Shown: piece after piece, positions 20,443-57,000 of the stretch
Layout: each line of letters begins with the position of its first letter
Position numbering within the stretch: the first letter of the stretch is position 1
Assembly: GCA_963855995.1 (NCBI GenBank)
Contig: OY979718.1
Span: forward strand, 21,630,282-21,694,281
Direction of reading: 5' to 3'
Length of the DNA: 64,000 nucleotides
From: Muricea muricata
Taxonomy: Eukaryota; Cnidaria; Anthozoa; Malacalcyonacea; Plexauridae
Notes under the pieces: model-generated
Database searches by the model: none
What the model was told of the DNA's origin: nothing
Seen by the model: only the letters and a program-made list of their open reading frames with translations
Made by a program: the position numbers and the translations under genes

Positions 20443-20529
20443 ACACTTTTTTGACTCAGGGAATGAATATCCTTAAGTTTTAAATGTTAATTATTGTCCT
20501 TATGACTGTATATAATGTATACAACTGAA

Positions 20530-21136: not shown

Positions 21137-21160
21137 AGTGCGATACTAAATTATTATTAA

Positions 21161-23264: not shown

Positions 23265-23268
23265 TTAA

Positions 23269-24440
23269 AGTGTTTATGAAACGAAATTGTGTCCAACATT
23301 TTCATGATTGCATTGGGAAGATCAGATTAAATAACAATATAACTTCTTTGGTAGAGTTTTTGTGGCTCCGTTCCATGTCAAGATATTCAACTTCATAGCA
23401 TATGCAAATAGCACAACCACCGACGTCATGCTGTATAATGAGTGACTGTTAAATTGCTAATTTTGTAGCATATAATAGTGAAAATTAACTAAAACTACAC
23501 TTGCATGTGTGTAGGCTATGTTTAGAAAGTCAGTTGAAATCACAGTATAAGTTCTTTGATAGAATTTTTGCAATTGCCTTACTTTTCGATATATTCAATT
23601 TTATTTTATTTGAAAATAACTGTGCATAATCGCTTTTCAAAAAAGCTACATTAATTTAAAAAGTACTCAAAATATAACACTTAAATACCCAGGCCTGGAC
23701 GTTAATGCTATAGAAAAATTGTGGGGGGAAATTTCGCTTCATAAACACTTTAAACGTCGAGAAACTCTTTCGAACTTGGCATTTTAGCGTTTTATCCCCT
23801 ATTTCATATTTCCATTTCAGCGCAGAGACGTAGCTAGAACTTTCTAAGGGGAAGGAAGTCTGTGAGAACTATAATAATTATGATCCGAGGAGTCTCAATT
23901 GGAAAGGAGCTTTGTGGAAACTAATAATTATGATCAAGCAGTCTCAACTGGGCGTTACCGTATACAGCCATAATGCTGTCGCTATCAATGACGAATTAAG
24001 AATGGCCTGAATATGAGGTAACCACCAGTTCACGATATTTCCAGGTTGTTCTTACATGGTATTAAATTTGTCCTTGCATCCTCTATCTATGCAGGTAAAA
24101 CTACGTGAAAATGTTAGTATTTAATTTATTGTACAGATATGTATGGCTTGAAAAGCCCTGCTGCGATTCTGAGAATGCATATTTCTAATAATAAGTTGGT
24201 ACTTCGTGCTCGGTTTCCTATGTACGCACTACGCAATTTACCACTTCTCTCAAAGTTGTACCACTGTATTTGCACTCTCTAAAGAGAAAAAAACGCGTTC
24301 TATTTCCCGAATTTAACGTACCCGACGATCATATATATTTGCATGATTCAATAAACAAGTTATTAATACTCCTTGTAGTTTCTATCTCTATTTATTTCCT
24401 ATCAATTTGTATCAATCTCCTGTTTTCAATATTCTTCAAC
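23269..24440. other. Intergenic, no gene recognised
   Basis: AT-rich; TTTAAAGTGTTTATGAAACG near 23263 is mirrored near 23738 (TTCATAAACACTTTAAACGT), an unexplained inverted pair about 470 bp apart that includes the TTAA element's right edge. Confidence 0.4.
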
Positions 24441-26060
24441 AGACTACCCTGACTTGGTCTTTACGCAGTATATTTTTGATGGAATTGAACATGATGTTAC
24501 GCCATCTCCACATGGAAACAGCAAGCAATCAAGGAGTTACGTCAGAACCAAAGAAAGCCCAGTAAATATGCTGTGTAATGAATCCGCTGTGAAACCACCC
24601 AAAGCAGCCTATTATACAGTGCACAAGGAATCGGATGATATCTTAAATGCCTCTTCTATAAGCGACCTTCCGCGAAATCGAGCACAAGCGAAACACCTGA
24701 GACGTGGCCGAACCGAGAAAAGATCATTTGACCAGTGATTATAATCCTTAGTCATTCTCTTGTACCAATGCAAGCGCCAATAAATTGAGCGAAAGGTACA
24801 GCCTTTCATTCGAGAAATGACTGGCGGGCCAGAATTGCGATGTATTCTGACGTTTGATTGGCAACTTCACGACCTGGCAACATCTTAAATCTTAAAGTTG
24901 TAGACCGCGAAACAGGCCGCCATTCAACCATTATTTGGCTACTGCTCCTTAGTCAGACAAAAACGTTTGATGCATGTAAATCTGGCATTTTTTTAGTAAA
25001 ATTGTAAGTCTGAATAAAGATATCCTGGGAGTTCTGGCTTATGGAACTGATGGTGAAAAGGAGCTTTTTAAGGCCATGAAGTTAAGTTTACTGAAAGCAT
25101 TGCATTTAAGGTGCTTTAATCACTTTCACGACAACTGCAAAGATAAGCTAAAAGCTTCAAACATCCCCGAACACGCTCAAAAGGAGTAACGAACGTCATG
25201 TTGTTTTGGAACAACAGAGAAAAGGGCAGTATCTGTCTAGTGGAACAAATCCAACGTTGTTTCAGTACACTTTCGAAAAATGTCAGTACCAGACTTTTAT
25301 GGCTGTGCAAAACCCGTTTTTAGGGCAGAACATTATTCTATCAATAAAACCATTTAGTTTATATCGTGAAATATTACATAATAAATTTGATTGAAAATTG
25401 ACTGACATAGCCCCATTGTAACAGAGAAAACGTATATCACTATAATTTTTCAACATGGTGCATTTCTCCAACATTAACAGGTTTCAAATGGTGTTTTTTA
25501 CCCTAGCAAGACTACAACGCATCGCGGGTGTCGTGTTGATAATTGAATTTCAGTCTCATAATCACCATCATATAGCTGGATGAAGGAGTTTCGGGGGAGG
25601 GGGTTTGCTCGTGACGTAACATGCATGTAAAAACTCGATGACGAACAGCTTGCTAATTTTTAATGATTTAAAACAATTTCTAAAAGTTCGTTCAACGGGG
25701 AAAACTAAAACTTTGTTGCATATCCCTTTAAAAAGCTATTATTAATTGAATTTAAATATACGTTGGCAGGTAAACATGATTTCCAACTCAATGCTGAAGG
25801 GTTAGGTGATCCTCCTAATGCTTACTATAACAAAATCCCTGAATCTGTGAAACGCCATGATTTAAAGAAAGCGACATGCCACGGTTTTGCGATGAAATGC
25901 GTAACTTTTTCCTTTAGCAAAAGGAAAACATTGAGTCCGCCGTCATTAATCATGGCCCTTACAAGTTGGCCCAAGAGTTTCCATCTCTTCAAGTTTCATC
26001 TGAATCATGGTTTGACATGACCACTAAGCAAAAGAAGCACACTTGAAAAAATCCCACGCT
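24441..26060 (+). pseudogene. Decayed transposase-like gene (MULE-like family)
   Basis: Scattered frames read in the right order for a long transposon-encoded protein that I have met in many invertebrate genomes: SPHGNSKQSRSYVRTKESP and SISDLPRNRAQAKHLRR (24500-24710), REMTGGPELRCILTFDWQL (24815-24870), AYGTDGEKELFKAMKLSLL with LHLRCFNHFHDNCKDKL (25035-25155), and AEGLGDPPNAYYNKIPESV then ESAVINHGPYKLAQE (25790-25980). The F/Y-G-T-D-G-E and C-F-x-H words recall the DDE region of MULE-type transposases. Many stops and frameshifts. Identification from memory. Confidence 0.5.
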
Positions 26061-27266
26061 TCAAAAATTTCGAAAGAATGTGAAACGAAATTTTACGAAT
26101 GCAACTAATCAAGGAAACACTTCCCCCCAAAATGGGAGCTGGGATTTGCCTATTTTGAGGAAAATGAGGATTGCATACAATGGGACTGGGGCTTATTGGA
26201 ACCCCCCCCCCCCCCCCACCCGATAGATATAAGCAATAGGTCGGATTAAGATTTGAGCAAGACCGCAGCCATATGGACTATGGAATTTGTACACTTGTAT
26301 AATGATTTAGTCAAAATTTGGGCTGAGAAATTGAGAATAGGACCCCCCCCCCCCCTTTGGGACTTGCAATAATGCTGATTAGTTTCCTTTTTATAGTTCT
26401 AAAGCTACTAACATTGTACTGCGTAAACATAATTTACGGGGGAGAACGAGTTTTCGTGTTCCTTTCTTTGTTCCTTTGCTTTCTTGCAAAATTTAACCTT
26501 GTCCCCCTATATTTCGTGTTTCCTTGTCTCGAAGTTATTTTTTGCTTTGTTTCTGTGTCCAAAAAGTTATACCATGGTAAATCCTTGGAAGACCCTCATG
26601 ACTGCGATTTGCTAGGAACGATGTTCCAGGACTGTTCGTATCCCCGTGCGATCGTGCCTACGTTGCACTGATATTAAATCAACGCAATTCCTTTCCGTTT
26701 TATTCTACACCTGATTCTAGCAGTTTAACACGCAATATATATTGAGAGGCGGACGTGCAGTTTAAATCTAGCAATTCTTTACTTGTTAGGTATAACAAAA
26801 ACATGTAAGCGAGAGCCGAGAGCGGGAAATTGAGATTCAGACTTGGGGGACTTAGCATGGGCGTAGTATAGGTTTTGCGGTGCTTGCTATGAAATATGAA
26901 TTCAGCGAGATATGTTAAACTGGTGCAGACCTCTCATTTGGGAGGCTGTTTAAAGTCATCGGACGGACATTTTCGAAATTATCATGTTGTCTATTCGATG
27001 TCTTACAACTCTGGCAGCAGTAATAATAATCACATGCCGGCGGTTTTATGGTTCCTCCGCTCCGAAACCCGCAAAATGGGAACCTGCAACTCTATTCTGA
27101 TATATTGACCGGAAGTGCATTTGACACAAATTTTCACGAAGTATTCTCGAATTGGGCACATCCACGTACTCTGTTTATGTTTTGCTGATGAGGATTTTTC
27201 ACGAGTAATTTTAAATTTTTGAGTCATTTTTGTTTCAAACTGTAAATCTTCTGTACTTAATATTTC
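26061..27266. other. Upstream region of SELENOS, poly-C tracts
   Basis: Two long C runs (26202-26218, 26343-26355) and a 104-codon hydrophobic frame (26357-26671) with no known match. The stretch just before the SELENOS start (27000-27266) should hold its promoter and 5' UTR; no TATA box is obvious. Confidence 0.4.
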
Positions 27267-27366
27267 ATGGAAGCAGATAACGATGGACCTCCAATCGAAC
27301 CTGTGCGCAAGAAAACAATTTTGAAGAATGAAACTCCGGAATTTGTGTCGACAAGCGTGAGTAATG
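27267..27366 (+). CDS. SELENOS: SELENOS exon 1
   Basis: Start ATG in TTTCATGG context opens MEADNDGPPIEPVRKK and ends TSVSN plus one base. Donor GTAAGG. Too short and open on both sides to be found by ORF length; placed by phase with exon 2. Confidence 0.8.
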
Positions 27367-30300
27367 GTAAGGAAATTCGTGTTTCCATGTACTGTAATTC
27401 ATCATCTTATGTAATTGTCATCATTTAGTTTATACTACACATACTACATTAGTTTGCTCTTCTCGTACGCTGCAGTTTCATGTGAATTGAGCCAGGAAAT
27501 TTTGATCTACTTTAAATGACGTCATCGTAGTCATAAGTCAAGTAATTAGTCAACTTTCAATTGAGCCATTAGTTATATTGTATTGCGTCTGAATTCCTGT
27601 GCTTTCGCTCAAAATTGGCATGTACTTCTGTATTGTTTGGGTAGTGCAAGCTAGATATATAGTTTCGATTGTGTGCTTTACTTCACCAAGCAATAGTGTA
27701 TTATTTTATTGGCTGTTTAACTACACTACAGACTGTGAGCAGTCGCTATTAAAGTAAAGAAGGTAATAAAAGGAGTGACTGCAGACAACACAGGAAGAAA
27801 TTAAACATGCATTACGCACACAATGCAAAATTCCCATTGATCAAAATCGATGTGTCCGTCAATAAAATCTGATGCATAAAAGTACACATCCTGTTCCTCT
27901 AGAGCCTGCTTGTATTCTCGTTTTACCTATTACATGATTTTTTGGATGGACACATTGAATTTGATGGATGGGAATTTTGCGTTATGTGGGCAATGTGGCG
28001 TAGCGTTATGTGGGACATATTTCATTTCTTCTTGAGTTGTTCCCAGTCCCTCCCTTTATCAACTCATTTCCTTTGGGGACTGCTCACAGATCTACTGTTT
28101 AACCTGCATGTAGACTTGCCACAAGTCACCAAAATGAGGGCTAAGTGATGTCCTATCAACAAAAATTGGTCAGCAAAAATTTGACGACCTTGATCTAACT
28201 AAAGAAAGAATCTTTTGCAGCAATTAAAGTATAAAATTTAATGGCAATTAAAATAAGGGCTTTGTCTTGGGCTTTAATTTAAAAGTTGATGTGTATTGTA
28301 TGTATGTTACTGTAATTATTTACCTTATTCTTTTAAGATGTCTTGAAATTTTACACTTATTAGAACTGTTGTGATTATTGACTGTGAGACTACACTCAGT
28401 CTGTTGTGCCATTTTGAGCAACTTTCTATATTCATTTGATTCATGAATGTGATTGGTTCTTACGTGTTCTCTGAGTGGCCCTGCTTTTAGTAGACACACT
28501 GTAATTGGTTTTCTCAGCAGAATCTTTAATAAGGCCATTACAAATTAAAATTTAGTCTCCCAGCACGGCATATTTGGGAATTACGCGCCAGCTGGTGGTC
28601 ATTTACATTATCAGTTTTTGAAGGATTTTTATGACCCATTTTTCATATTGATATTCATAATTTTAATATAATTTATTATTCATGGGGATCAATGGTTTCT
28701 GTAAAAACAAACAAAATAGTTTGCGATACAAGTCATACATTGCAATGCATTATATGTTTAAATTTATGTAAGGTTTTAACTGTTTTATATTTTTTTAAAT
28801 GGTACACAATATATATTTCAATGGAGTGCTTTCTAAACAGTATAGATATTCACAAATTGTGGATTTTTCTAACTTTTGGTTCAAAAGGTCAAATTATTGA
28901 AACCAGATATCAACAATGATACAGCCAGTTTCAGCAGACACAGGCATTGGATGAGAAACTAAAGTCTAATTTTGAGTAGCATAAGACACAGTACATAACT
29001 GAGAGTGCATGAGTGGATTAGTGATTGACCGATAGTGCAAACATCGGTTTTACCGATAGCCGATTTTTTTTCATCACTCGTACCCGATACCGATACTGAT
29101 TTTTAATGACGTCATAATGTTATCAGTTGATCAAATCAAGGTGACGTCACCCATTTTGATTTGAATTTTAGATTATGTTTTAGGTGATACTGGACACAAA
29201 AAATTTTTTTTAGTTCAAGTTAAATTAAAACTGTAGTATGTTAACGATGTTTACTTTCAGTCTACTACACGAGAAAAATAATTTTGCTTCGCAATTTTTT
29301 GTTATCATTAGCTATTACTAGCTGATTTACCTACAAAATCATTGGTAAAAAATATTGGTATATTTGCTAACACAATTTCACGACAACGAATCATAATGGA
29401 AATACGAAATATCTTGAATTTGTAGCTCAGAACGTTGCCTAGGGAGTGAAAGAGAATAATCATATTTCAATTAATAAAAGTAATGAATATATGACATGCA
29501 TCTGCAAAAGAATACTGATAAAACGCGACATTTGCTTAGGGTAAAGTCATGGTTTTACCCTGAGTCCCTAGCAGATACAAAATATCTGTATTTCCACGCG
29601 CAATGCATATAATTTGTACAGCGTGAATTTTCTCAACTATCGGTTTCACACAATCGGTAAATATGTACAAAACTACCGATACCGATTGTCTACCGATATG
29701 GCAAATATTGGCCCGATACCGATACTGATTATCGGTCAATCACTAGAGTGGATGTCAACCCACAAGTTGGGAGTGTCTTGAATGACATGTCAGTTGCTCA
29801 GTGCTATTTATTTTTGCTGCATATATTAAGTAAGCATCTTCTTGCAAGTCTAGGCTATGTTTGACATACATAGGCTAGCTGCTTAACAGTTTTATAACAG
29901 CTTAGTTGGCTGTTTGGTGATCATTCATTTGAGTGCAGCCTCATAATTATGCAAAAAGTCTTACTGCCTACGTACTTAGCAGGTTTCATTTTGCTTACAG
30001 GGTTAGCTAACTAAATGAAAGCACTGCCAGGTACCTTAGGCCAATAGGCTAGGTATAGTGCAGTTCATGCTTAAGTCAAGGCCAAGTCAATGCATGTATA
30101 TGAGGCAACAATATTATATTATTGTACACTGTCTAATGTTTGATAAAATTATAATGTATATAATTATGAGCATATTGGCAGATAAAAAAGGATCAACTAT
30201 GAAAGTATTACAATATAATGTCTAATTTGTGTATTTTTTAGGTCTGTTGTTCCTGGAGAAATATGGTTGGTTTGTGCTACTTGGCATTGTGGTTGCTCTT

Positions 30301-33300
30301 TTTATTTGGAGTAAATTGAAACCTTTATTGAGAAAATGGAAAGAGGAACGGGATAAGAGAATTGAGGAAGAAAATATTGGTAATCTTTTAAGAGAAAGTA
30401 ACCCTAAAACTACTTTAATTTGAGTATAACAAAGCTAAAGACTAAGTAACCAACAATGCTAGATTGAAAAAGGTTTGCTGAGATTATTTCTAAATTGTTG
30501 AGTTAAATGAACATTGTGGAAGTTTAATGTTTTTTTGGCAATACTATCAATAGCAAATCTTGGACCAAGACATTTAGGCAGTAATAATATGTGGGCAATT
30601 TTCGTTCAGCTTCAGTGCCTTCCATCGACAACTAATTTTTGTCTTTATGAATTTATAGATTTTTATATGCTAAGTACGAATTTTCATGTTATCACATTTC
30701 AAAACCTGCAAATTGTCATCTGTATTTGCAAAGACTCTTCAATATGACTGGCTTCATGAAATTTTTTTATTTGCATTATAAACTTTAGCAATTGCAGACT
30801 ACCAGTATGAAAGGCTATATATAGAAGGTATATAAAAGCTTGTATTTAAAAAGAATGGAAAAGAACGATAATATATTGCATACGTGCAATCACTATAAAC
30901 TATTACAACTCAGCCTTGTTGTCTGATTGTCAAATATTTCATTGTATTGTTATATTACTTAACATTTTGATGACAAAATTCTAGATATAAACTATTTCTC
31001 AGCAGAAGTGCAGTGATTTGTAAAATTGGTCATTCACTAAGGGAAGTTGCACAAAACTTGGATGTGACAAAGCATGTAAAAAAAATCTCACAGTTATTTT
31101 TTCAAAGTCTCTGAAATTTTTAATTAATGGCATAACTTAGATCAGGAAGTAAACAGTATTTACAGCTATTATTGTTGTTACTTTTGATTAACTGGCATAG
31201 CCGCTTGATCTAATATTTTCTATGACAAAAAGGCTTCACGCAGGCAAGCCAGCTGGCTTGTTGCCACAGACTGGGGAGGACGTCTTCTAATTCTTTTAAC
31301 TTTCATTTCAATCAATTAACACATTAAGCTGCAGAACTTTTCAATTGACAAGTTAAATTGTTTGGCATTGTAAAATTAAAAAAAAACTTGAGTACACTTG
31401 TAACCCAAGGGTCAATTGCAGCTCAAATGCACATTCAACCCTCCGCTACCCGCGCTACGGCGAAGACCCTGACACAGGCTGGTCACGTGGCACCCAAATT
31501 TTGGGTGCTTGACATTCGTACTTAGCATGGGTAGGTAAAAACGCGTTATCACAAATTATTGTCAAACAACAAGGGAGACCGACGAAGCGGGAAGTCATCT
31601 GACTCTGAAACCGTATCTTTGCTTTCTTTTGTGTTTGCATCACGCTGTTGTAATCTAAAGGCCCGTTCAAACGAAGCCAACTTACCCCTGCTAAGTGCGA
31701 ATGCCTCGTGACCAGCCTGTGTCAGGGTCTTCGCCGTAGCGCGGGTAGCGGAGGTGAAGACCCTGAGAATCAGGTTGATGCACATTAAATAACCCAATGC
31801 ATTGAGCTCTAAAAAAATTCCCAGTTTTGAGGGATGTACGGTATGAGAAATTTCCAGTTTTGGTATATATAAAACAACAATCCAGCATAGTAATGGTTCA
31901 AATTAAGTTACCATACTTCGATTTATGAGAGTTTCAGTCCTGTTCTGCCAATTTTTAGCCATTTCAAAAATTGTTGTATGATGGATCTGCAACAAATGAA
32001 AAAGTCAACAAAATACCGATACTGGATCCAATACTGATATTTTGAGTTATTGTATGCCACTTGGTGTGGCATTGATTATGACTCAGATTGATTAGTTTTT
32101 GTACGCATTTAAATATTAATTGACAATTTAAGAAAAATGTTTCTAGACATTATTCAGAGTATTGAGAACAAATTATGACTGACAGCATACAGGAAAAATA
32201 GGGTCATGGATTGGATTCCATAGCAGATTCAGCAGGCAGTCAATTCCATTATGCTTCCCTTGGATGAAGTTTTCTGAGGGTTTTCTCGAAAGAAGCACCT
32301 CAGGGGGTTCTGGTTCTTAGCTTCCTTTAATCTTTTGAATTTGTGAGGGTTAAGGTGAAAAGATCCACATTTTGAGTCCACACTTTGATCTTTTTGTCTG
32401 AAGGGTTAGAAATTTTCAATGGTCATTCGCATGAGCTGTGTGGATATTAAATGGAATGGCGAAGTTGATGTGTACAATTTTCTTATAAATATAAAAGAAC
32501 ATACCTAAACATGGTATTACTGCTATAATTATTATAAAATCATGAAGCCTGTCTTATTAAAGAACCTTTACAAATACATGTGGGCGACCGTTACCACCAA
32601 AAACGCTATGACATATGTATGAAGTGAATTGACATAAACGCGAATGACTCATTGTGTTTAGGAATGGTCCAAGGTTACGTCTTCATATGACTGGACAAAA
32701 TAAGAATAATCCACTTAGATTTGAAATGATACACTTAGTTGTGAATTAATTCAATGTGCGCTATGCTGATTCATTACGTTCATGTCAAATTACCTATCGT
32801 GTTTCTAAAAGATTTGACATGTCGTGCACAAATGAAATGATCCAGCTAGATGTGACATCATTTAACACAATTTGAAATCATTCAGTTAAAACCATGGTGA
32901 AACCATTCATTTAAATGTGTAATGATTCAGTGCGTTGTGAAATCACTCAACACGTTGTGAAATGATTCAGTTTTAACTAAAATTATTCAACAAGATTGAA
33001 AATCATTCAGTAACATTTGAAGTGATCCAACAACTTTCGAAAGCATTCAATAGGATGTGAAATAGTAAATCAACAAGATTTGAAACGATTTAATATGAAG
33101 ACGTAGTTTAATTATGTCTTTTCCACTTGGAGAGGAACTCTTTCTTCCAAAACTTTCGAATTTCCCTGTTGGACGGCTTATGCAGGGGTGGAAAATGTAT
33201 CGGACCATGGGACCCAGAAAATTTTAAGGTTCCCAGAAAATATTTCAAGCTCACATTTGTAAAACACTTCCGAGGAATTGGTAGATGCGGGGTTTCCTGA

Positions 33301-36300: not shown

Positions 36301-39300
36301 AGCTGAGAAAAGATAGGAGTACGCATTCTATATCTATTCTTTCTATTATGATTTCTAATTGTGTTGAATGATTTCACATCTAGCTGAATCATTTCATTTG
36401 TGCACGACATGTCAAATCATTCCCAAACACGATAAGTAATTTGACATGAACGTAATGAATCAGCATAGCGCACTTTGAATTAATTCACAACTATGTGAAT
36501 CATTTTAAATTTAAGTGAATTATTCTTATTTTTGTCCAGCCACATAACGACATAACCTTGGACCATTCATAAACACAATGAATCATTCGCGTTTATGACG
36601 TCAATTCACTTTTACATGTATAGCGTTTTTTTGGTAACGGCCGCCCATAAAGACAGATTAATAATTCCTAAATATTTAAATACGTCAAAAACAGTACAAA
36701 AATTCATGTAACCACGTGAAAACCCCTACCACGAGACTTGGACTAGTGCAATGATTGCAAATAACGTGAAGTTTCGTGACCAAAATGGCAGAAAATGGCA
36801 GACGTTTAGTGAAAAGTATCGATGTTTAATCCTAAATTACAGAAAACTGCAAGTCTTTAGAAGTGTCAACATGAAAAGTCGTTCTCACCACGTAAAAATC
36901 TATAGATTCATATGGAAAAAATTAGTTGTGGATGGATGGCAGCGAAAATCACTATCTAAGCGACTTTTGCTGTTACAGAATACGGTCTAAAGTTAGCATT
37001 GCATATCCAATGCTTTTTTATTTGCTATTATTTTCTGCTGTTAATATACAGTTGCAAGATATATCTTTGTGTTATAAAGGTCCCAGTAAAAAGTTCATAG
37101 AATTATTAAACAATTATAAAATTGTGATAGATTGATAGTTTATGTAACTTGTCAAATCTAAAGATCTGTAAATTTTGCGTGTGGAGAGATGCTTGCTGTA
37201 CTAGTCTTTTACGCAAAGTTGAATAACCCAAACTGCTCACAAGCCATGCATGGTAAAATTTAATGTTCATCTCTAGAATAGTTGCTGAGGAATCACCTTA
37301 AACATAAGTGACAACTCTTCAAAGACCTAAATTTTTAAAGTGTACAGTATTTGCCACGAGATTTTCTATCCTCTATTTTAAATTTTTAAAATCTATACAT
37401 TATATTAACAACTTCTGTATAAGCTCCTTGTAATGGTTGCATGGTGATTTTCAAATTAAAATATAATTTTGTGGAAACACCACGTAAGTTTATTATCGCA
37501 GAGTTTTCGATTCGTAAGCTCGGATCTTCATCAGTGCTAATAATAATGCGACTAATAATATAAATTCACACGTCCCTTAAATAGGTAAAATGTCGTGATT
37601 TGTATAGTATGCTCGCGTGATTTAAATGTTGATTAAACGGTTAAATCAACTACGTCAAATCTAACAAGCAAAAAAATTCTAACTAATTCATGCGCATGCA
37701 AAGAAGAAAGAGAAATCAATTTGCCACAATAAAGAGAGCGCGCCACGTACTATTCAGTGGCTTACCCTCCTGATCTCCTGAGAAGCACAATACAATATGA
37801 TAGATCAGGAGGGTAAGCCACTGGATACTACGTGGAGCGCTCTAATTACTGTGGCAAATTGATTGTAGATAACTTTCATTGCCAACAATGTGATGTCATG
37901 ATAAGTAATGATTTTTATAATTATAGCAGCTGTTAGATGGAAAAAACAACCCAAAGTTATATGATTGCGAGAATTATTAGTTACACATACGTTTATTTTA
38001 GCATGGTCTTCAGCTTGAGTAACCAAATATAATATAAGGTTAGATGATAGATTATTAGGCATTGTGATGTCTCCAGTGAAAAGTTCAAATTAACTAAAAT
38101 CTCTTATAAGTTAGAAGAAAGAAGGTGAAAGAGTACAAAAGAAGTTGCAAAATATACAATTTTTAAAGATCATACCAACTATAGGCTAAAGTCACGTGCA
38201 CTTCAATGGTGCATCTCAAAATTGCTTTCAGCCTCATTTTCATGATTTGAAAAACTCTGAAAAGAAGAAATATTTTTTTCACTTTGATTGTAGGATATAT
38301 TCAAGGCACCCAATGATATGTAATTATTAATAAGGTTTACTGGTTTCAATAGATCCTGACCGTATAGCTCAACGACTAGAAAAAATGGAACTGCAAAGAA
38401 GACGGATGCAAGAAGCTGTAAATGCCAGTGCTGCAAAACATGCTGAGAAGATGAAGGAAGTACGTGTTGTTTTATTGACGGAAAAAGTTATGACTTTTTC
38501 AGAGAATTTTTAAGGAGCGTGAAACAGCCCAAAAAACTCAATCTTTAATCGAGTTTTAAAATTCAATCTGCTCACCAAAACGTTCAACGCAATGGCACTT
38601 ATGCGGGTTTTCCCTAAGGCTACTGTCTCACCTCCAAGCCTCGCTTAGATGTGCAGAGAACGTATTGCGTCAATGCGAGGCACAATAGGCTTAGGGAAAA
38701 CCTGCATAAGTGCTATTCAAATGAAGTTTTTGAATTAATTTTCAGTTGGAAACCGAGAATTAGGAAAAAATGGTTGGAAACCACTTCACAACACAAGAAA
38801 AACTATGCATCATAGTGATAGTCATATGCAATGACCAAGAGTCGCTCTTTTTATTTGACATAATACCCGCTGTCTCAACTATACTTCTAGGGAGGCGGAC
38901 AGCCACTTCAGACCCCCTCACTCAAATTCATCATAGTTGAATTTGGCTAGTATTCTATAACATTCTTGGCTAGTATTGTATAAACAGGCATCAAGCAAAT
39001 CAAGTATTTTTTTAATTTTCTATGCATATGTACGTCGCAAAATACTCTAATGTAATGGTATTATTCAAAGCCCCCGTAAGTACTCAAATCAAAATGAGTT
39101 TCGGATATCTTACAATCCGCTTGAATACCCTGTTAGCGAACTTTGTATCATTATATTAATTTGTTTTTCTCAAGCAATCACACGAACCAATATTGGTACG
39201 GTTTTCGCCTGCAGGACAGCTTAAAATTGTTTATATTTTGTTCAGCGCAAAATGTTATCGCAGGGCAATTTCATTTGCCCCGGTCCTAAAAAACAAAATG

Positions 39301-40540
39301 GACCAGTTTCGCCCCCGTGTATATATCATACTATCTTCTCAAATGCTTACTGCTGTCATGCATTCATTCTATAGACAAAATTGTTTTCATAGACAAAATA
39401 GGAGATGTAATACAATCACGTGCGAAAACTCGTTTTGTGTCCTCTATTATACGGTAGCTTAAAAGGCCGGTAATAGATTTTCTTGTGCTTGTTTTAGATG
39501 AATGCCCAAAAAAGAAAGGAGAAAATTGACGATTGGGAAAATGCTCAAAAAGGGCGCAGCCCAAGAAGTCGTTCAGTTAAACCTGACTATAATCCACTGA
39601 CTGGAGGTAGTTCTGGCTCATCTTATCGACCAGGTAGACGAGGAAATACAGGTATACGAAACTTTGCTGCTTTGTTGTAGGATACTCTAGAGGTTACTTA
39701 AGATTGCCATTTGGACAATACATACAAGGCAGCTCCTTAGTGAGATAAATACCATGTAAGTTTTTGCACGATTTATACTGGAAATCATGTACATTTATCA
39801 GTGCATTCCACTTATGCCGTGGAATGGCAAGGTTGGAATGAAGGATGGAATGTTCCATTCATCAAGGCGATATAGCCGAGTTGAATGGAGCATTCCGTTT
39901 TCCACCGAATGAAAACATTCTTACCGTTGCATGAATATTAAAAATATTCATTATTTACATTCACAATCCGGGCGAACTCATTCCGTTTCTGTAGAGACTG
40001 TACAGGGGATCGAAATGTGTACATGAGTCCGGATTGAGTTACAACTCATTCGAGATTGAGTTTATTCCAAATTTTTTTCAATCCGGATAAAGATTTTATG
40101 CAAAATAAGAAATTTCATTCGCGCATAGTTAAATGCAACTGAAATCGCCGAAAAAAAATAAGAGTGTCGGTGCATGAATGTGAAACGAATTCCAATCGGA
40201 AATGAGATTTTTATTTATCGCGATCTTTCAAGCTTCGACTCAGTCTCTCATGTAAACACGGACTGAATTGGAAGTTTCATTCAGAATTTAAACTCAATCA
40301 GGATTCATGGGAACTACCTCCAACAGTTAGTTTAGCGTTCTCACCGATGGGATTTATTGAAAACATTGAGTGCAATAGTACGTGTTTTTTTTGCATTCTT
40401 GGTAAATGGACTTTCTATTCAATATCACGTGACCGTAAATAACCAGTTAAACGATGTTGATTCAACAGGGTATTATATAATGATTAATTCTATTCGCTTG
40501 TAAAATTATATTTTCTTTTTTAGGTGGTGGATGAGGTTAA
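27267..40540 (+). CDS. SELENOS: Selenoprotein S (SELENOS/VIMP), five coding exons, Sec at codon 170
   Basis: Coding exons 27267-27366, 30242-30379, 38353-38459, 39498-39651 and 40524-40540 join into 171 residues (human protein: 189). Order: short cytosol/lumen N-terminus, one membrane segment (about residues 41-56, YGWFVLLGIVVALFIW), a long charged helix (58-135) with KMQE-like and DDWENAQKG words matching the family's EMWDSMQEGK, then YNPLTGG, a Gly-rich tail, YRPGRRG and the hallmark end GGUG. TGA 40532-40534 is the Sec codon, followed by Gly and TAA. The family protein sits in the ER membrane, binds derlins and p97/VCP in ER-associated degradation, and reduces substrates through a Cys-Sec bond. 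Here no cysteine is visible anywhere in the predicted chain, and the p97-binding AA pair of the VIM motif (RxxxxxAAxxR) reads LQ, both worth noting. A SECIS follows at 40678-40724. Confidence 0.93.
29019..29745. mobile_element. hAT-like non-autonomous element, 727 bp, 8-bp TSD, in SELENOS intron 1
   Basis: TIRs TAGTGATTGACCGAT and ATCGGTCAATCACTA. TSD GAGTGGAT at 29011-29018 and 29746-29753. Repeated CCGATACCGATACTGATT words lie near both ends. No transposase. Confidence 0.88.
30242..30379 (+). CDS. SELENOS: SELENOS exon 2: transmembrane helix
   Basis: Acceptor gtattttttag, donor GTAATC. Encodes GLLFLEKYGWFVLL through the membrane helix to the charged KLKPLLRKWKEERDKRIEEE. Matches the ATYGW and KLxxxLR words of vertebrate selenoprotein S. 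Confidence 0.92.
30380..32582. other. SELENOS intron 2, proximal part, with an inverted-repeat pair
   Basis: Contains inverted arms at 31441-31490 and 31707-31755 (see separate entry). Otherwise AT-rich with no gene. Confidence 0.5.
31441..31755. repeat. Inverted repeat, GC-rich arms of about 48 bp
   Basis: CCTCCGCTACCCGCGCTACG at the left is mirrored by CGTAGCGCGGGTAGCGGAGG at the right; the arms continue through GAAGACCCTGACACAGGCTG. A second fragment GGTGAAGACCCTGAG follows the right arm. Probably a MITE. Confidence 0.7.
33183..33775. mobile_element. hAT-like non-autonomous element, 593 bp, 8-bp TSD
   Basis: Ends CAGGGGTGGAAAA and TTTTTCCACCCCTG, the classic hAT terminus. TSD GGCTTATG at 33175-33182 and 33776-33783 is perfect and interrupts the left TIR of the surrounding element. 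Overlapping frames on the minus strand are not recognised. Confidence 0.92.
33826..34010. mobile_element. Small MITE-like hairpin
   Basis: TTAGAGTTATTCCAAACATATGC at the left is mirrored by GCATATTTTAGGAATAACTCTA at the right. Confidence 0.6.
34560..34706. repeat. Tandem duplication, two units of about 74 bp
   Basis: GTGGAAAAGACACAATTAATG...GATTTATTTCAxATCATCTTGAA occurs twice back to back, differing at one or two bases. It spans the junction of the inner element and the foldback's right arm. Confidence 0.85.
34875..36347. mobile_element. Element inserted in the foldback's right arm, 8-bp TSD
   Basis: TSD ATGATTTC at 34867-34874 and 36348-36355. TIR about 30 bp: left ATAGAAATAATAGATATAGA, right TCTATATCTATTCTTTCTAT, continuing as GAATGCGTACTC/GAGTACGCATTC once the nested insert at 34897-35384 is skipped. 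hAT-type by TSD length. Confidence 0.82.
34897..35384. mobile_element. MITE nested within the TIR of 34875-36347
   Basis: TIRs CTGGTCTGTGGCAAATGTTT and AAACATTTGCCACAGACCGG. ATAGAA flanks both sides (34891-34896, 35385-35390), a 6-bp TSD. Removing it restores the host element's TIR. Confidence 0.82.
36651..37716. other. SELENOS intron 2, distal part
   Basis: No repeat structure or gene recognised; a 79-codon frame at 36751-36990 has no known motif. Confidence 0.4.
37717..37861. mobile_element. MITE hairpin, 145 bp
   Basis: CAATTTGCCACAATAAAGAGAG and its mirror CTCTAATTACTGTGGCAAATTG form ends; AGTGGCTTACCCTCCTGAT is mirrored inside by ATCAGGAGGGTAAGCCACT. Loop about 25 bp. Confidence 0.85.
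38353..38459 (+). CDS. SELENOS: SELENOS exon 3: charged helix
   Basis: Acceptor tttcaatag, donor GTACGT. Completes an Asp codon and reads DPDRIAQRLEKMELQRRRMQ, then AVNASAAKHAEKMKE, aligned with the family's RLKMQEELNAQVEKHKEKLK. The two alanines of the p97-binding VIM motif are replaced by Leu-Gln. Confidence 0.9.
38595..38713. mobile_element. MITE hairpin, about 119 bp, in SELENOS intron 3
   Basis: GCACTTATGCGGGTTTTCCC and GGGAAAACCTGCATAAGTGC are mirrored ends; CTAAGGC/GCTTAGG continues the stem. Confidence 0.82.
39498..39651 (+). CDS. SELENOS: SELENOS exon 4: WD-box to glycine-rich tail
   Basis: Acceptor cttgttttag, donor GTATAC. Encodes KRKEKIDDWENAQKGRS, then DYNPLTGGSSGSSYRPGRRG. Matches the YNPLSG...WRPGRRG signature. 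Ends with the first base of a Gly codon. Confidence 0.93.
40524..40540 (+). CDS. SELENOS: SELENOS exon 5: Gly-Gly-Gly-Sec-Gly end
   Basis: Acceptor tctttttttag is strong. Seventeen coding bases: GT completes Gly, then GGT GGA TGA GGT TAA. TGA at 40532-40534 is read as selenocysteine, giving the family's universal GGUG ending. Confidence 0.92.
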
Positions 40541-40677
40541 ATTCACGGCACATGTGCATCAAGAGATATTGTTTTTTTCCAACGGTATTTCGTACGTGCT
40601 GCCCTAATTTAATATATTGTACATAATGTATGTCATTACTGAGTTGCGCAGTTGTGCAGCAAATTGGATTTGCTGTT

Positions 40678-40724
40678 ATGATGTTAGTTCTTGAAACGCA
40701 TTAATTGCGGAGGAATTGACTGAA
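40678..40724 (+). promoter_or_regulatory. SECIS element (form 2) in the SELENOS 3' UTR
   Basis: Core quartet ATGAT (40678-40682) faces TGAA (40721-40724), giving the tandem G.A pairs. Between them GTTAGTTC (40683-40690) pairs with GAATTGAC (40713-40720), 8 bp including two G.U. The apical loop has the conserved AA at 40694-40695, 12 bases from the quartet, and a mini-hairpin CGCA/TGCG (40697-40709), the form-2 shape. It recruits SBP2 and eEFSec so that the upstream TGA is read as Sec. Confidence 0.88.
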
Positions 40725-40747
40725 GAAATACACTGTCGCTAATACCA

Positions 40748-40757
40748 AATAAATAAA
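40748..40757 (+). terminator. SELENOS polyadenylation signals
   Basis: Two overlapping AATAAA hexamers (40748-40753 and 40752-40757) lie 24 bases after the SECIS, fixing the transcript's likely end near 40775. Confidence 0.75.
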
Positions 40758-41930
40758 CCTTTTTGAGTGACGACATTCTCTACTTTTATGAATTATTATT
40801 ATTGTCATGCATGGCCATTTTCATACAACACGTTTTGAAAGTTTAGAAAACTGTTTTACTTCTAAAATATTTGCATGTGGGATAAATTATGTAGTGATGT
40901 TACCATTTAAGTTCCAGGAAGTCGGGGCCAAATTCTGTACCAAATACTACCAGGCACCTGAAGACTCCTTGTGGGTGAAACAGACTGCAGTGGTGCGTTT
41001 TTGAGGTATTTTGCACGATTATAATACAGTTTGGGCTGTCTATATCTTATTGAGCACTCTTTTGTATTTCGCAAACCAAAACTATATATGTATATATTAG
41101 TCTTGCATATATTGTACATTCATTCAGGTTATTTTTAACAAGTAACGACACTTATCTACATATATGCAGGCGAAAGTCTTCTTTGCTCAAAAATACCTCA
41201 AATAATAAGGGAACGACGATGCATGGTAAGGATCGATTTTCATAATATGTATGTTGACTATGAACAAGTTTTTAACGGTAAAAATATGAATTATGGCAAC
41301 AGCATTTCACACGGGAATGTAGGTGAACGAGGTTGTTTTAGCTGCATGTCCTCGTTGTGTTCTCGTTTGAAAGCTCGACGCCGGTTTCAACCAAACGCTC
41401 ATAATCAGTGTTATGAAATGAAATAAGGTACGTTTATTCACTGCATTTGAAACCCAATTGGATCGTTGCATTTACAGAATTTGAATTTTTGCGAAGGAGA
41501 TACATACATGGCTCAGAGTTGCACATGACAAAAAACTCTCAATACATTACATACAACGATTCAGTAATAAATAGAGGATACGGTGGCGCGAAGAAAAGGC
41601 GAAAAATATTGTTTTCAACACGAGAAAATGATATTCATATCTTCAAGCTACCGTTTAATGTTCTTTTTATTCAGCTGATTTGACCGTGAGTAAAAGGCCT
41701 GGAACTAGCTACCGAATAAAAATCCATTTTGCTGTTTTTAATCACTTATATCGTATTTTCCTTTATGAAACTTGTTGAAACTTTGTAATCATCTTCAGTA
41801 AACAAGTCCACCAGAAGTATGGAATCGACGTAAGTTATACTTAATGAGAAATTTGCTAGTTTGGCTCGAAAAATGGATTTCTATTTGACAACTAGCGCCA
41901 GTACCTTTCCGTGTTTTCAGATCACCTAGT
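40758..41930. other. Between SELENOS and gene B, no gene recognised
   Basis: Frames of 60 to 78 codons at 40807-41004, 41223-41426 and 41447-41683 have no known motif. The middle one ends GCFSCMSSLCSRLKARRRF, Cys- and Arg-rich, but has no clear splice sites. Confidence 0.35.
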
Positions 41931-42783: not shown

Positions 42784-45700
42784 CTGGAAAAGACATGGAA
42801 ACTTTCAAGACCTCTTAAATCGCAAACTGCTTTGCCACTATGTAGTGTTACTAGCTATACTGGGGCCTCGTAAAGAGTGTGACAAATAGAGTTTTCCCAA
42901 TGACCGATTTAGTTCGCCTTCTAGTCCCGCGGAGATATTACATAGAAAAAAATATGAAAAAGTGATATTCTCTCGGAATCTTCGTTCGAAACATCGAATT
43001 TTAGCTTGCTCGTTGAGTTTATCAACGATCCTATAGTTTTGTCTGTATATGAGCGCACCCAATTGCCGAATAAATTAAATTATCGAATCACCTATACCTC
43101 GGCGTTAATTTTTTTTGCTTATTTTGTTCCTATCGCATACTTGGCACCTGGCATGACTTATGGCGAATTTGTAGTTTCTCGACCACTACATCCATTGGCA
43201 AACCATTGCGCTCAGTTCATCATCGCGTAAAAATACCAGGCGGCACTAATCATGCACCTAAGGTTTTCACCTAAATATTGTAATTAAATGTTGCATCTAA
43301 ATAATTATGCATCTAAATAACTGAATATTTCATACCTTGGCTACGGTTGTTGCAGTCAGAGTTGATATGGGTGGAATATTTGCTGTTTGTGGCACAATTG
43401 GTTGTATGGCCGGCGGTCTACCTCCTGGTGTTGCGGGCGGGCCTGTGTCTTGGGAAAGAATAATCTTGGAAATTGCATCATTACGACTGCAGTTGGCATT
43501 TTGTACCGGAGTTACACCTGAATAATTTGGTTTGTTAATATTTGCTCCTTTGGCAACCAGAAGCTGTAGAATTTCACAACATTCCAGGTCAATAGCGTGG
43601 TGCAGAGCTGTGTGACCGCTTTTATTATCCTGAAGGGAAAGAACAGTCATTAGGTCTTACGTTTGTTATAATAAATTCGAAATATATACTTTTTCATATG
43701 TACTTGACTACGACTGCATGTATGAATCCGCGTTACCTTAGCGTTTAGGTTTACACCATATTTTATCAAAGCTTCCACTATGCTTTTATGCTTTTTCTGA
43801 ACTGCTACATGTAATGCAGTTAGACCGTTATAATTCTTTATTTCCAAATCTAAATCCTTTCGTTGAGCTTTCATTATCTCAAGTAAACATCCGATATGCC
43901 CACGAGCTGCACACATGTGTGCTGCAGTTTGGCCGTTCCGATCTTGCGCGTTAGGTTCTGCACCAGCGGTCACAAGTTGTCGAACAACCTCTGGTTGGTC
44001 GGTGAGAACTGCGAGATGTAATGTTGTCTGCAAATGTAACAAATACACATGGTTGATTATAGCTATGCGGGAGCAATTCAAGCAATTGAAGCTTCAGGCC
44101 CATGCGTTGACATTTATTGCATTTTAGCCCAACTGCCTCGGCTTCCTGAGGCCATTTTTCGGTATTTGCCGTGTAAAAGGATTGAAGAGGGACTTCAAAA
44201 GGGTTGAAAGTCAAAGAAAAACGTGTTTCTTCAAGAAATATAGAGGTGAAATTTAGGAAAGACTTCTGGGCGAAATAAAAAAGACACGAAATCGCATCAG
44301 AGAAATCGCATCTTTTAAAATGTTTGAATCGAAACATTGGTTTACATTCATTTATTTACGAGCAAAACAAACCAAAACAGTGTCAGATATTCAGTTGGTA
44401 AATCGTGTTTTGCTAGCAGTTTAAAATGCAAACAAAGCGTTCGCTTGCATTAAGGCCACGTTTACACTGGCGATATGAGATCAACTTATTTTACCTGAAA
44501 CATCTCTATAAAATTTATGTACACGTCACATTTCACAAACGGTTTCGAAGTATGGAGTTTGAAGTGTAACCATGCTTTCATGCGGTTTGTAGTTTATTCA
44601 GCTACGTCCTGACAAATGGCACTGGCTGTTGGGACTAGGTATAGTGGGTATTGAGACAAATGATAAATAATTTTATGCTTAAATCTTACCTGAGATAAAT
44701 TATTGGGTGTGTTGAGAGTGAGCTTAGAAAATGTTATCAATCCAATCAATTTCTCTATAAGTCTTTTATTCTCGTGCACAATGGCAATGTGTAAAGGTCT
44801 AAAAAGTTAAACATGATGAGATTGTAGATATTAATATAAATTTTATAATATTTGTGTTAGTCAAGCGTTCGTGCGAGTTTGGCGTTTTTGGATCTGATCA
44901 TAATTCACAAACCTCCATAATAGATTTTTAAATAATGGGTACACTTTTGGCCACCTTTCGAAGCCAAAATTTGTGTAGCATTTGTCTAACTGTTGCCTAA
45001 CACTGCCGTAATTTGAAAACAAGCCAAACAAGAAATTTTATTATTATCAATATCACAGTTTCTTTTGAATTAAAGGAAATCAAAGAACGACACGCATGGA
45101 GATGCATAGTTACTGAGATGTGGCTCACACCCTCTGACTTACGCTCCACACCAAAGGAGTTGGTTGTTTTTCTCCAAATTTTTGTTGAGGAATGGTCAAT
45201 ATTAATTTGCTTAATCACATTACACATTCCATTCAAATCTCTTCTGCCTCTCTTATTATTTCCCTTCTCAATAACGGCATCTCTATGCAAGTAAGTTCTA
45301 GAAGCCCTTGTTTCACTTAGTAAACGTGCTGTTAGGATTCTGGTCGTTAGGGGTCGCCACCAATGGTCGCCACCAATGGTCGCCACCGACCAATACTAAC
45401 AAGCCTTGCGAGTGGTTGGTAATTGGTTATAACAATGAACGACAAACTATAGAAAATGGTTGTCTACAGAACAGATCACAAAGAATACTACCTATTGGGC
45501 CAACCACGAAGCCTGATCATTCGCATGGTGTCCACTTGGGTTATTAATTCCGATAAAATTTAAAGTTTTCTTAGTTTAATAAAAATGAAAGTGAGAAATC
45601 TTCAGAATTCACTTACGTATCTCCATCATCGTCTTGTAAAACAGCCAAATGACATTCGCTTGCTGCAAGAAGACTTTCTGTTGCGCTATTCGAGCTCGCT

Positions 45701-51370: not shown

Positions 51371-54300
51371 TCAAAATAGGAGCTCCGCTCAAATGACAAA
51401 TTACTGGCTGAGTCTCTAAAAGATTTGGTCGAAAGTCGCTCCGAAAACGTTATTGAGTTCCTGGATGGAAATTACTGTGAAATTCAAAAGTACATTGAAG
51501 AATTAAACTCTGAAAGTTTGAAGTCGTCGGTTGCAGCAGTTCAACTAAAATTATCTAAAGATACATTGGGCAAGCTGCATAGTAGAAGAGAGAGCACGAT
51601 TGAATATTGTAAGTACAAATTTCCTAGCTTTCCAAAAGATAAACCTTTACGTCCGATAACTCGTACTGTGGGTATAAGCAAATGACAAATTGGCAAGCTA
51701 CCTTATCGCTTTAGTGAGGTATTGCTGCTTAGGGGAAATGTCTACTGAGACACGCGATATGTTTAAAAAGTCTTCAGTGAGTCAAGAAACGTCTTTTGTT
51801 AGTTCACATAGGCAAAATGCCTTAGAGATGAGATTTCTGAGTGGGAAGGAAGCTAAGATTGTAGCTCTCGAATCAGAATTGGTAATATTTAAGGGAAATT
51901 GCATATCCAGTCTAAAAAAGCGAACGGGAAACTTGAATCGTTTGAGATTGAAATAAACAAACATAAAAAAAAATATGGTAAAGTATGAAAGTAACTTTCA
52001 TAAACTGTCTAAAGATCTTGAGAAGCTTAGAAAAGAAACAAAGGCAATTGTTAAAGGTCATTAAGTGCTGAAAATTCAGCAACTTTAATGACCAAAACCA
52101 TATCCTCTGGGACTGACAATGTTACATGTGCAGCGGTTACAAAATCTGATGCAAATTTAAATTCAAACGATCATTCAGGCGCTCCAAAATCTGATTCAGT
52201 AAACAATGGGTCTAAAAATGACTTACAGAAACTTAAACCCTCAGGTGAATCTTGCAGTTTGAATGACCAATTAAGCAGCCCTGTTGGCAAAGACCTATTT
52301 GTTTGGGTAGAAAGAAGGAGAATAAAAAGACTTTATCTGGGAGGTGTGCGAGAGGGGGCAACAGAGAAGTTAATTTCAGAATATGTGACTAAAAGGGGAA
52401 TCAAACCAACATTTGTAAGACTGATGAAAAGCAAGAGAATAGGTAGTGTAGCCGTTCGAGTGAATGTTTTGAATGAAGATTTTGAGCGTGCCTCAGCAAA
52501 AGACTTACAAAAAGTCGCAGCACAAAAGTGGTTCTGATACGGGAAAAAATGGCGAAACTTAATTTTGGCTGCTGGAACTGTGGCGTAGTTTATGGAAACT
52601 TTATTTACGTAAAATCGTTACTGCGTACTTCGGATGTCTTGGCACTAAGCGAGCTTTTGATTGTACGAAGATGAACTGACATTTTTGGATAGTTTAGATA
52701 TTAATTTTGATGTTTTCTCGAGCAGCAGCACGAAAAACAATACACTTGAGAGATGGCGAAGGGGCAAAGCTGTAGTTGCACTATATTTTAAGAAAAGTTT
52801 AAAAGCAAGAGAAATACAAACTTCTTGTGATCGAATCGTTTCAGCATCAATTATGATCGGAGAGGTAGGAACTGTTGTAGTATCAGTGTATTTACCTTCT
52901 ACAAACTACAATTTTACTGATTATTTATAATACACTTCATGAGTTGGAACAGTTCTGTATGCAGCTGAAAAGTTATGGTTTCAACCTGATTTTACTTGGG
53001 AATTTCAATGCACACTTGTCAGAAATAAAGTTTCAACAAAGATTGAGTAAAAGGGGATTTAAACTGCAGGAATTTTGTATTTCGCTAAATTTAATTCCTG
53101 TAAATGTATCGCCGGTTTGCAAAAATCCTTAATTTACATATTTCTCCAGGACCGGAAACTCGATTGTTGATTATGTAATTATTGATGATGCTTTATTGCA
53201 GTTATTGGAAACTGTGAACCGCTCTTCTGAGCACCCAGATAATACAGTGCACCATCTACCGTTGAAAATATGTTTTTCTATTAATGACTCGGATATAGCT
53301 AAGGGTAAATGACATTGGCAATCAGAGTTTTAATACTTATGACAAAATACCATGGAAACGTTGTACGTTGGAACAGTTGGATAGGTATCATGAATATTTG
53401 AATACACTATATTGTGCAACATTTTGAGAGAGGACGATTTGCCTGATGTAAATGTATTTCATGAGGAACTAATCAAAAGCATCAAAGTGGCAGACCAAAT
53501 ACTACCGAGAGTCAAGTTTAAAAGCTATATTAAACCATTTGGAATGAAAATCTTTAAAGCCTAAGAAAATCCGTTATGGCTACAAGAGAAAAATAAATAC
53601 GAAAAGATTCTCCAAGACAGCGGAGTAATACCTTCTATATGAAATACAAAAAGTTAAAATTTGAATACAGATGTGAGCAGAGGAGAGCTGCATGGGGGTT
53701 TCAAAGGAAAGAATTTAATGATTTTGGCAATTTACAAGATCTGAACAATGCAAAATTCTGGCGACTGTTACACAATAAGGCAAGTGGGAAGAATAAAAAG
53801 AAAGAAAAAATGTCATTGAAAATTGACAGTGAATTTATTATGGATTCGCAGCAATTCGCAGATCTTTGGGCAAATTAATTTGAAACGTTAATAACACCCC
53901 AACAAGATGACGGAATTTACGATCAATTCTACAAGAATGATATTGAAAACCAAGTTAATGATATTATCCAGAATTCAGAAGATATTACAGATTGCATATT
54001 TAATGCACCGTTCACAATTCAGGAAATTCATGAGGTTACTAGGAGCATGTCTAATGGTAAAGCTCCACGGTTTGATGGGGTCACATATGAGCATCTAAAA
54101 TATGGCAGAGAAAGAATGGTACGTGCACTATTAACATTTTATAACTGTATAAATGACAGAGAAGAGATTCCAATTTGAATTGGCAGTCAAAATACCTATT
54201 TCCAAAATCAACAAGAAAACGCATACGTTTGATGACCATGGAGGCATTAATGGTGTGTATTTTGGATCACCTATGTTCGCCGATGACTCTGATATGTTGT

Positions 54301-55970
54301 CAAGGATGAAATCTGGACTTGAAAGAATGTTAGAATGTACTTGGGAATATAGTATCAAGTGAAGATTTAAATTTAATTCATCGAAATCGATAATTTTAAC
54401 TTTTGGGGAAAACAATTGGGAGCGTGGTGTAAACCAGAATACCAGAAATTGGAAACTTGACTCACAAAACATAATATCTTAGAAAGAGAAAGCTGGTGTA
54501 ATCTTCAAAAAATATGGCATATAAATAAGGATTCTCCCCCATTTGTTACCAAAGCTCTTTCAAGTGAAAGAGAAGCAGGAATAGTCATAATGAGGATGGG
54601 TGCTCGATATGGAGGACTAAATCCTGTAATTGCAGCAGATTTATGGAAACGAATTGGCATTTTAAAGATGCTGCATGGCTGTGAACTCTGGCATTTAAAC
54701 TGACATGCTGTATCCGAATTAGAAAAAACATTACGGTGCGTATTATGCAGGGGTTTCTACCTGGAACATCTAGATCTGCTTCTCGTGGCCTTCTAGGTCT
54801 ATTATCAATTTAGGGTGAAACAGACAAACGTAAACTGTACTTTCTGGGTCGACTTATATTAATGAGCTATGGAATGCCGTGTCGGAGAATCTTTTTTGTG
54901 AAGTTGATACGTTGGAAATGGAACCGTACAAGCAACTTGACGGGTTTTCTTCCAGAAATTGTAAGGATTCTACTTAAATATGATCTAATGGACACCTTGA
55001 CAGAGTATATTTCACAGGATCGACTCCCAAGAAAAAATTCGTCAATGAACATGTGTATGAGCACTATAATACGCTTTGGAGGGACAAAATTATTACACAT
55101 GGGCAATGGGCGATGTTTGCTCAAATTCATTCTATCATTGAAGTTTCGATATCGTGGTTAATAGGTAATAGCAATCCGGATCACCTGGAGCAAATCAACG
55201 ATGTGTTGAGATTAATACGTGGTTCTTATAAAATTAAAGAGAAACGTGTAAACAAACCAGAAACGTACAGAAATCATTGTGATATATGCAGTATGACTAT
55301 GTAAATTCCGTAGAACATGCACTGTTAGTCTGTTGCACTGTAAGGGCAGCAGTCAACCAAGAGGAGAACTTTTAGAATGGATTAATGACATCATGCCAAT
55401 GTATCTTTCCCTTTTACATGAAATTTTGAGAAAATTCAAAATAGGCAAAAATATCACCACAGCTTGAAAGAGTATCCTAAGTTTACTAAGATCGCAAAGT
55501 TTAGCTGTGAAATGTTTTAAAATGTAGAAAATGTAGCCTTGCGAAGTTGGCAAATTTTGTATATATTTGTTTACGGGCGGAAAAGTGATAATCAATAAAC
55601 TTGGGATGCTCTTTCAAGCTATGGTGATATTTTTGTCTATTTCGATTTTTTCAAAATTTTGTCTGAAAGGAAAAAGGTCCATTAAAATAGCAGTACATTT
55701 TGCAAATTTAACAGACAAGAAATTTCTTTTAGTTACATTAGGTAAAAGATTGGAGACATTGTGCGCAAATACGAACATATGGACGTAGCTATTGCTGGAA
55801 TTTGCAGTCTTTGTCTCAATATGTTTTAGGAATAAAATTTTCTCAAAGTAGTTAGTTATGCTTCAGGTAATTAAGTAAGTCCCACTTACATATATATTTG
55901 TTTTTAAATTCATATAACTAGTATAATTTTGTAATTACTCTTCAGAAAATGGCAATAAAGATTTAAAACT
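51371..55970 (+). pseudogene. LINE family 1, copy 1, near full length, decayed
   Basis: ORF1 remnants: VESRSENVIEFLDGNYCEIQ (51425) and RRIKRLYLGGVREGATEKL (52313). ORF2 starts near 52550 with KLNFGCWNCGV, then DVLALSE, LILLGNFNAHLSE and SSEHPDNTVHH (endonuclease), RT words SNGKAPRFDGVTYEHLKY (54054) and GSPMFADDSDMLSRMKSGL (54267; the A-D-D catalytic block), and a C-terminal GNSNPDHLEQINDVLRLIRG followed by a CDIC...EHALL zinc-knuckle-like end (about 55275-55330). It ends with GGCAATAAAGATTTAAAACT at about 55969. Stops, frameshifts and an RT deletion make it inactive. Confidence 0.85.
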
Positions 55971-56309
55971 AGCCACTCATGACCATCTTACCACCCCTAG
56001 TTTTACCACCTCTAGTTTTCAATGTTGTCTAGTTATTACGGTTAGCATTGGGTTAGTCTATATGACATGCGTAGAAGGTACCTCTAGTCTATTATATTTA
56101 GTATACTTCGCGTTACCTTAGTCAAAGACCAATACCAAGACCGTGTATTATATTGTAACTCTAGTCTGTCTGATGATGATTTTGCAATAAACTCGAAATA
56201 TCACAACTCAATATCGTCCGTATCCTGGGTTGCTAATCAAGATGCTAATCTTTGGATTATGTTTTATTCTATATTAGTTAATTAAAGTAACTCTAGTCCA
56301 CATTACCAG

Positions 56310-57000
56310 TTATTCAACCAGTCGATCAATCAGTCGACCAGTCAATCGATCTGTCGACCAATCGATCGATCAGACGACCAGTCGATCGATCAGTCAACCA
56401 ATCGATCGATCAGTCGATCAGTCGATCGATCAGTTGACCAGTCGATCGATCAGGCGACCAGCCAGTCAACCAGTCGGTCGATCAGGCGACCAGTCGATCG
56501 ATCAGGTGACCAGTCGATCGATCAGGCGACCAATCAATCGATCAGGCGACCAGTCGATCGATCAGGCGACCAGTCGATCGATCAGTTGACCAGTCGATCG
56601 ATCAGTCGACCAATCGATCGATCAGTCGATTGATCAGTCAACTAGTCAATCTATAAGGCGACCAGTCGATCGATTTGGCGACCAGCCAGTCGACCAGTCG
56701 GTCGATCAGTCGATCGATCAGGTGACCAATCGATCGGTCAAGCGACTAGTCAGTTGATCAGTCGACCAGTCGATCGATCAGGCGACTAGTCAGTCCACAA
56801 TACAATACAATACAATATTCATCATTGGATTATGTTTTATTCTATATTAGTTAATTAAAGTAACTCTAGTCCACATTACCAGTTATTCGACCAGTCGATC
56901 AATCAGTCAACCAGTCAATCGATCTGTCGACCAATCGATCGATCAGACGATCAGTCGATCGATCAGTCAACCAATCGATCGATCAGGCGACCAGTTTTAA
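56310..57000. repeat. Minisatellite, about 20-bp unit CAGTCGACCAGTCGATCGAT
   Basis: Tens of degenerate copies of GACCAGTCGATCGATCAG. A unique word set (TGGATTATGTTTTATTCTAT...CCAGTTATTC) occurs before the array at 56262 and again inside it at 56824, so a block of about 560 bp was duplicated. It separates the 3' ends of two inverted LINE copies. Confidence 0.95.

Follow-up and report, generated by a model that had tools for sequence, protein, structure and literature searches.

The 64-kb window, by which we mean the whole stretch of Muricea muricata DNA that was analysed, contains on its plus strand the gene for SELENOS (selenoprotein S/VIMP), otherwise ordinary and well-formed, with five coding exons between 27267 and 40540 and a 3′UTR beyond. 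The four introns are all GT...AG with matching phases, and splicing gives an open frame of 171 aa (MEADNDGPP...EFVSTSVSNGLLFLEKYGWFVLLGIVVALFIW...RPGRRGNTGGGUG). The spliced protein matched Pfam PF06936 (Selenoprotein_S) at 7.4e-34 and 117.8 bits, above the curated cut-off of 29.8, and the NCBIfam comparison returned seven weak, unrelated families, all far below their cut-offs.

Gene model and terminal exon

Coding exon 1 (27267–27366), giving MEADNDGPPIEPVRKKTILKNETPEFVSTSVSN and the first base of the next codon, is the least certain. In the scanned stretch 20001–30230 it is the sole ATG open reading frame of at least 8 codons that reaches an in-phase GGTRAG donor, the one form tried; the Pfam match to the full protein starts at residue 14. 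Exon 2 (30242–30379), with AG/GT borders and fitting phases, encodes the predicted membrane segment, and as an unspliced frame it matched Selenoprotein_S at 1.4e-06 (28.7 bits, slightly below the cut-off of 29.8). Exon 3 (38353–38459) encodes the cytosolic helix and was detected by Pfam by itself, as an unspliced frame (3.5e-08). Exon 4 (39498–39651), ending in ...YNPLTGGSSGSSYRPGRRGNTG, matched as an unspliced frame at 1.9e-06 (28.4 bits, slightly below the cut-off), its best stretch covering profile positions 167–189 of 192.

Two PDB sequences named Selenoprotein S, presumably the human chains, match residues 77–130 and 59–130 of the predicted protein (1.3e-07 and 3.2e-07), and exon 3 is part of the region that aligns with chains 2q2f_A and 5kiu_A. 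A PF06936 search of the 453-Mb genome, made exon by exon with three candidates scored, reported one match, corresponding to the exon 3 described here. Because it did not list exons 2 and 4, its sensitivity is limited and a second SELENOS copy is conceivable.

The terminal exon begins at an acceptor, TTCTTTTTTAG|GTGGTGGATGAGGTTAA, at 40524 and opens GT GGT GGA TGA GGT TAA, its coding part being 17 nt long (40524–40540). Joined to the lone G left over from the exon ending at 39651, it gives the in-phase reading G-G-G-U-G-stop, where the TGA at 40532–40534 is the predicted selenocysteine codon (Sec170 of 171) and TAA closes the GGUG. The SELENOS family tail has a penultimate Sec within a C-terminal GGUG, and the human protein also ends in GGUG. 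The penultimate TGA of such a tail is present in the Muricea sequence, and we infer that TGA 40532 very probably encodes selenocysteine. The acceptor-plus-tail motif AGGNGGNGGNTGAGGNTRR, composed with the SELENOS tail already in view, occurs at one site in both strands of the window (40522–40540) and in none of 100 shuffles.

The TGA, the place of the acceptor, the exon phase and the GGUG ending are all in the sequence as the first-pass annotation had stated them. Its description of a 17-base exon holds for the coding bases at 40524, but these are the coding part only of a terminal exon that continues into the 3′UTR; the exon must extend past them, because the SECIS and the 3′UTR are carried on the same exon. 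The layout is like that of human SELENOS, where the terminal exon comprises the last coding portion and the SECIS-bearing 3′UTR, according to two papers (PMC3316567; PMC3628699). Muricea has five predicted coding exons and the human major form six exons; for Muricea coding exons alone were counted.

SECIS-like element and folding of the 3′UTR

We detected a form-2 SECIS-like element at 40669–40732 (plus strand), with its AUGA at 40678–40681, by folding and by Rfam SECIS_1, which aligned end to end (model positions 1–64 of 64) with 24.9 bits. The form-2 features are all present: the AUGA quartet, a helix II of 9 pairs in the folds and 10 in the pattern search, apical AA within GAAAC, the extra mini-hairpin CGCA-UUAAU-UGCG and a 3′ UGA providing the GA. 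Counted from the T of the TGA, the element starts after 137 nt and the quartet after 146 nt; the element had been placed 138 bases downstream, with quartet, apical AA and mini-hairpin, which is right to within one base.

The score of 24.9 bits lies below the gathering score of 35, and Rfam aligns the outer helix I with poor pairing. A covariance score below threshold had been named in advance as grounds for refutation, and formally this is the outcome for Rfam SECIS_1. We do not count it as such because of the E-value of 0.0071 (a 247-base stretch against all 4227 families), the end-to-end alignment and the expected place of the hit. For the whole window the E-value is 1.8, which by our own division by the number of families gives about 4e-4 for SECIS_1 alone. 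The SECIS call thus leans on geometry and position over score, and on these grounds the hairpin 40669–40732 is a very probable SECIS.

Rfam at gathering scores gave zero matches in the whole window, the element was not listed in the genome-wide SECIS_1 search (150 of 8798 candidates scored), and a first, stricter SECIS pattern had no match in the window in either orientation. The second pattern, its geometry loosened post hoc with the element in view and including the mini-hairpin, found two sites in the window, at 40678 (10/10 pairs) and at 8601 (8/9 pairs). Shuffled windows (n = 200) contained a mean of 0.435 such sites and a maximum of 3, so by pattern the element is not significant window-wide.

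In the fold of 40640–40745 each AUGA base is unpaired with a probability of 0.84–0.96, and in the minimum-energy structure of the shorter 40650–40745 the AUGA is paired with the upstream hairpin. The longer segment has an unusually low folding energy (z = -2.55; 6/500 shuffles as low), and the element by itself (40669–40735) is of modest stability (28/500 shuffles as low). The minimum-energy fold of 40640–40745 also contains an enclosing stem (40646–40739) over a 9-pair hairpin (40656–40676) and the SECIS helix, a single-sequence prediction that is missing from the fold of 40650–40745. The small hairpin beside the SECIS (40645–40677) is unremarkable alone, with 107 of 500 shuffles as low; a hairpin of 8 Watson-Crick pairs whose loop measures 3–8 arose in 27 of 1000 shuffled 3′UTRs.

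Two overlapping AATAAA poly(A) signals lie at 40748–40757 (starting at 40748 and 40752), and they are spanned by a hairpin at 40733–40775 for which 8/500 shuffles fold as low; this may or may not be the counterpart of the vertebrate SL2. A vertebrate-like SL1 within the 50 nt that open the 3′UTR was considered and is unsupported (183/500 shuffles fold equally well), so that, compared with vertebrate SELENOS, the Muricea 3′UTR has no clear SL1 counterpart.

Selenocysteine machinery and alternative readings

The tRNA-Sec search of the genome listed 53 matches, two of them above the cut-off of 47, both with 78.1 bits, and both loci were called by ARAGORN as tRNA-SeC with anticodon tca, that is, tRNA-Sec(UCA). 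The same model gave matches in 14/14 control genomes and exceeded its cut-off in five. The 51 sub-cut-off matches lie on one contig (C1) at about 57.9–58.2 Mb and 68.9 Mb (L004–L009 and others), often spaced by about 4.3 or 2.3 kb, and look like tandem tRNA gene arrays. One of these 51 loci (L004) was examined and was called by ARAGORN as tRNA-Ser(gct) with a nearby tRNA-Thr(tgt).

All six scored SepSecS matches were above the cut-off and fall within about 5 kb of one contig (C5), and a TAA lies within one of them. Of 14 control genomes, 3 also gave SepSecS matches above the cut-off, one being Bacillus subtilis, which makes the model less than wholly specific. The genome-wide SECIS_1 search (150 of 8798 candidates scored) gave one hit above the cut-off, with 43.4 bits, just 3′ of an AhpC/TSA-like coding sequence, which we take to be a SELENOL/SELENOU-like gene.

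SELENOK had one genome match, and about 2.3 kb downstream of it stands an acceptor followed by GGPSPPPMAGGG-TGA-GR. By its place and by the tail of the family we assume this GGG-TGA-GR to be the SELENOK end; SELENOK thus shares with SELENOS the coding end GGG-TGA-G, although it is a different family. Scanning 782 nt from the SELENOK TGA onwards with Rfam gave no match to SECIS_1, so the sensitivity of Rfam for SECIS in this genome is not assured. With the loosened pattern, a single weak candidate (8/10 pairs) appeared 693 nt beyond that TGA. At the SELENOK end (L016 4280–4330) a GTAAGG directly follows the AG of the Arg codon, a possible splice donor; with it the SELENOK SECIS would lie further downstream.

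The Pfam match, the exon phases, the GGUG, the SECIS-like hairpin at a workable distance and the genomic signs of Sec machinery support the earlier view of this gene as a true selenoprotein SELENOS, as far as sequence can tell. We consider it highly probable that the 3′ end works by splicing of 39651 to 40524, a form-2 SECIS, and reading of UGA as penultimate Sec. The spliced message would read ...RPGRRGNTGGG-UGA-GGU-UAA, and, following the established mechanism, the SECIS in its 3′UTR would recruit a SECIS-binding protein and eEFSec with tRNA-Sec, after which the UGA would be decoded as Sec in the penultimate position. Going by the family, the product would be an ER-membrane protein, facing the cytosol and linked to p97 as in vertebrates. 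Failure of decoding would leave a -GGG end that resembles a di-Gly-type C-degron, and the short form may be destroyed, by extension from mammals, where PMC12035522 describes truncated SELENOS and SELENOK whose di-Gly ends are C-degrons for KLHDC2 and its relatives.

The alternative that survives best, and which we regard as improbable, is a SELENOS gene in which TGA 40532 has become a plain stop, the hairpin is either a decayed SECIS or a chance look-alike, and the protein ends in -GGG. The sub-threshold SECIS_1 score, the frequency with which the SECIS-like pattern with mini-hairpin arises in shuffled windows (0.435 sites per window, at most 3) and the competing fold that conceals the AUGA in one context would all agree with such a loss. 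Against it, the TGA is followed by a Gly codon and a stop, as in the family tail; the quartet, the apical AA and the mini-hairpin are all in the right place; and the genome has kept tRNA-Sec along with a SepSecS match and a TGA-tailed SELENOK.

Reading of the penultimate exon beyond 39651 in the main transcript would give a non-Sec tail, IRNFAALL, with a stop at 39678–39680. The frame is indeed open for 8 codons beyond the split Gly, but donor and acceptor are normal-looking, and we know of no family counterpart for an IRNFAALL-type tail, unlike the GGUG obtained after the intron, so we give this reading hardly any weight. A decayed SELENOS pseudogene is no more credible, since introns are present, the frame is open over 171 codons, one PF06936 match was reported genome-wide (three candidates scored, exon by exon), and we found no point in its favour.

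Absence of cysteine from the predicted protein, and neighbouring features

With TGA 40532 taken as Sec170, the predicted SELENOS shows a less usual trait: the chain of 171 aa contains no Cys. For human SELENOS a selenosulfide between Cys174 and Sec188 has been proposed (PMC3628699). At the corresponding spacing, 14 residues before Sec170, the Muricea protein has Ser156, and in contrast to the human protein there is no Cys there or elsewhere, so, provided that the gene model is complete, an internal selenosulfide is impossible. In other respects the protein resembles vertebrate SELENOS (SelS, VIMP, SEPS1; the human gene), sharing the membrane segment, the helix region of the solved chains and the penultimate Sec.

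From the sequence, the reaction partner of Sec170 would have to be an external thiol or another protein, and not a residue of its own chain. We see about even chances for the full proposal that this Cys-free SELENOS, with Sec170 as its sole thiol- or selenol-type side chain, works without an internal selenosulfide, while its SECIS may sit in an unusual closed three-way fold where alternative pairing of the small hairpin with AUGA is a possible on/off switch for Sec insertion. If true, the proposal would be a case in which nature has separated the function of Sec from the internal bond. The Cys-less tail offers a test of the redox model of the family: should Sec be retained in a protein that lacks the partner Cys, its conserved role could not rest on the internal selenosulfide alone.

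SELENOS as a selenoprotein of invertebrates is already known. SelS is listed among the selenoproteins of Ciona intestinalis (PMC2874816) and of the planarian Schmidtea mediterranea (PMC3828610), and a table of animal selenoproteomes in PMC3473315 counts it in 3 of 6 columns. The Sec residue is absent in 22 of 36 SelS database proteins according to PMC3628699, and the present work supplies a gene model for a kind that is frequently misannotated. The main novelty is the Cys-less form, for which we found no description in the top-ranked open-licence papers; the fold surrounding the SECIS is more tentatively novel.

Several other features lie in the window. Open reading frames resembling pieces of retroelement proteins by eye are found at 450–1241 (minus strand), 53879–58941 (both strands) and 60981–63634 (plus strand); the one scanned, 58186–58941, matched no Pfam family at E 0.01. 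Repetitive sequence at 56278–56630 has two open frames with an RSVDQSID-like unit in translation, and another repetitive stretch, at 1699–2710, has long open frames in both orientations, with a GNGNGE-like translation on the plus strand; weak Rfam miRNA matches at about 1645–1951 are probably chance matches on the latter repeats. Ankyrin-repeat frames (Pfam Ank/Ank_2) were detected on the minus strand at 5874–6230 and at 43333–44093, the latter perhaps, as we assume, IkB/BCL3-like.
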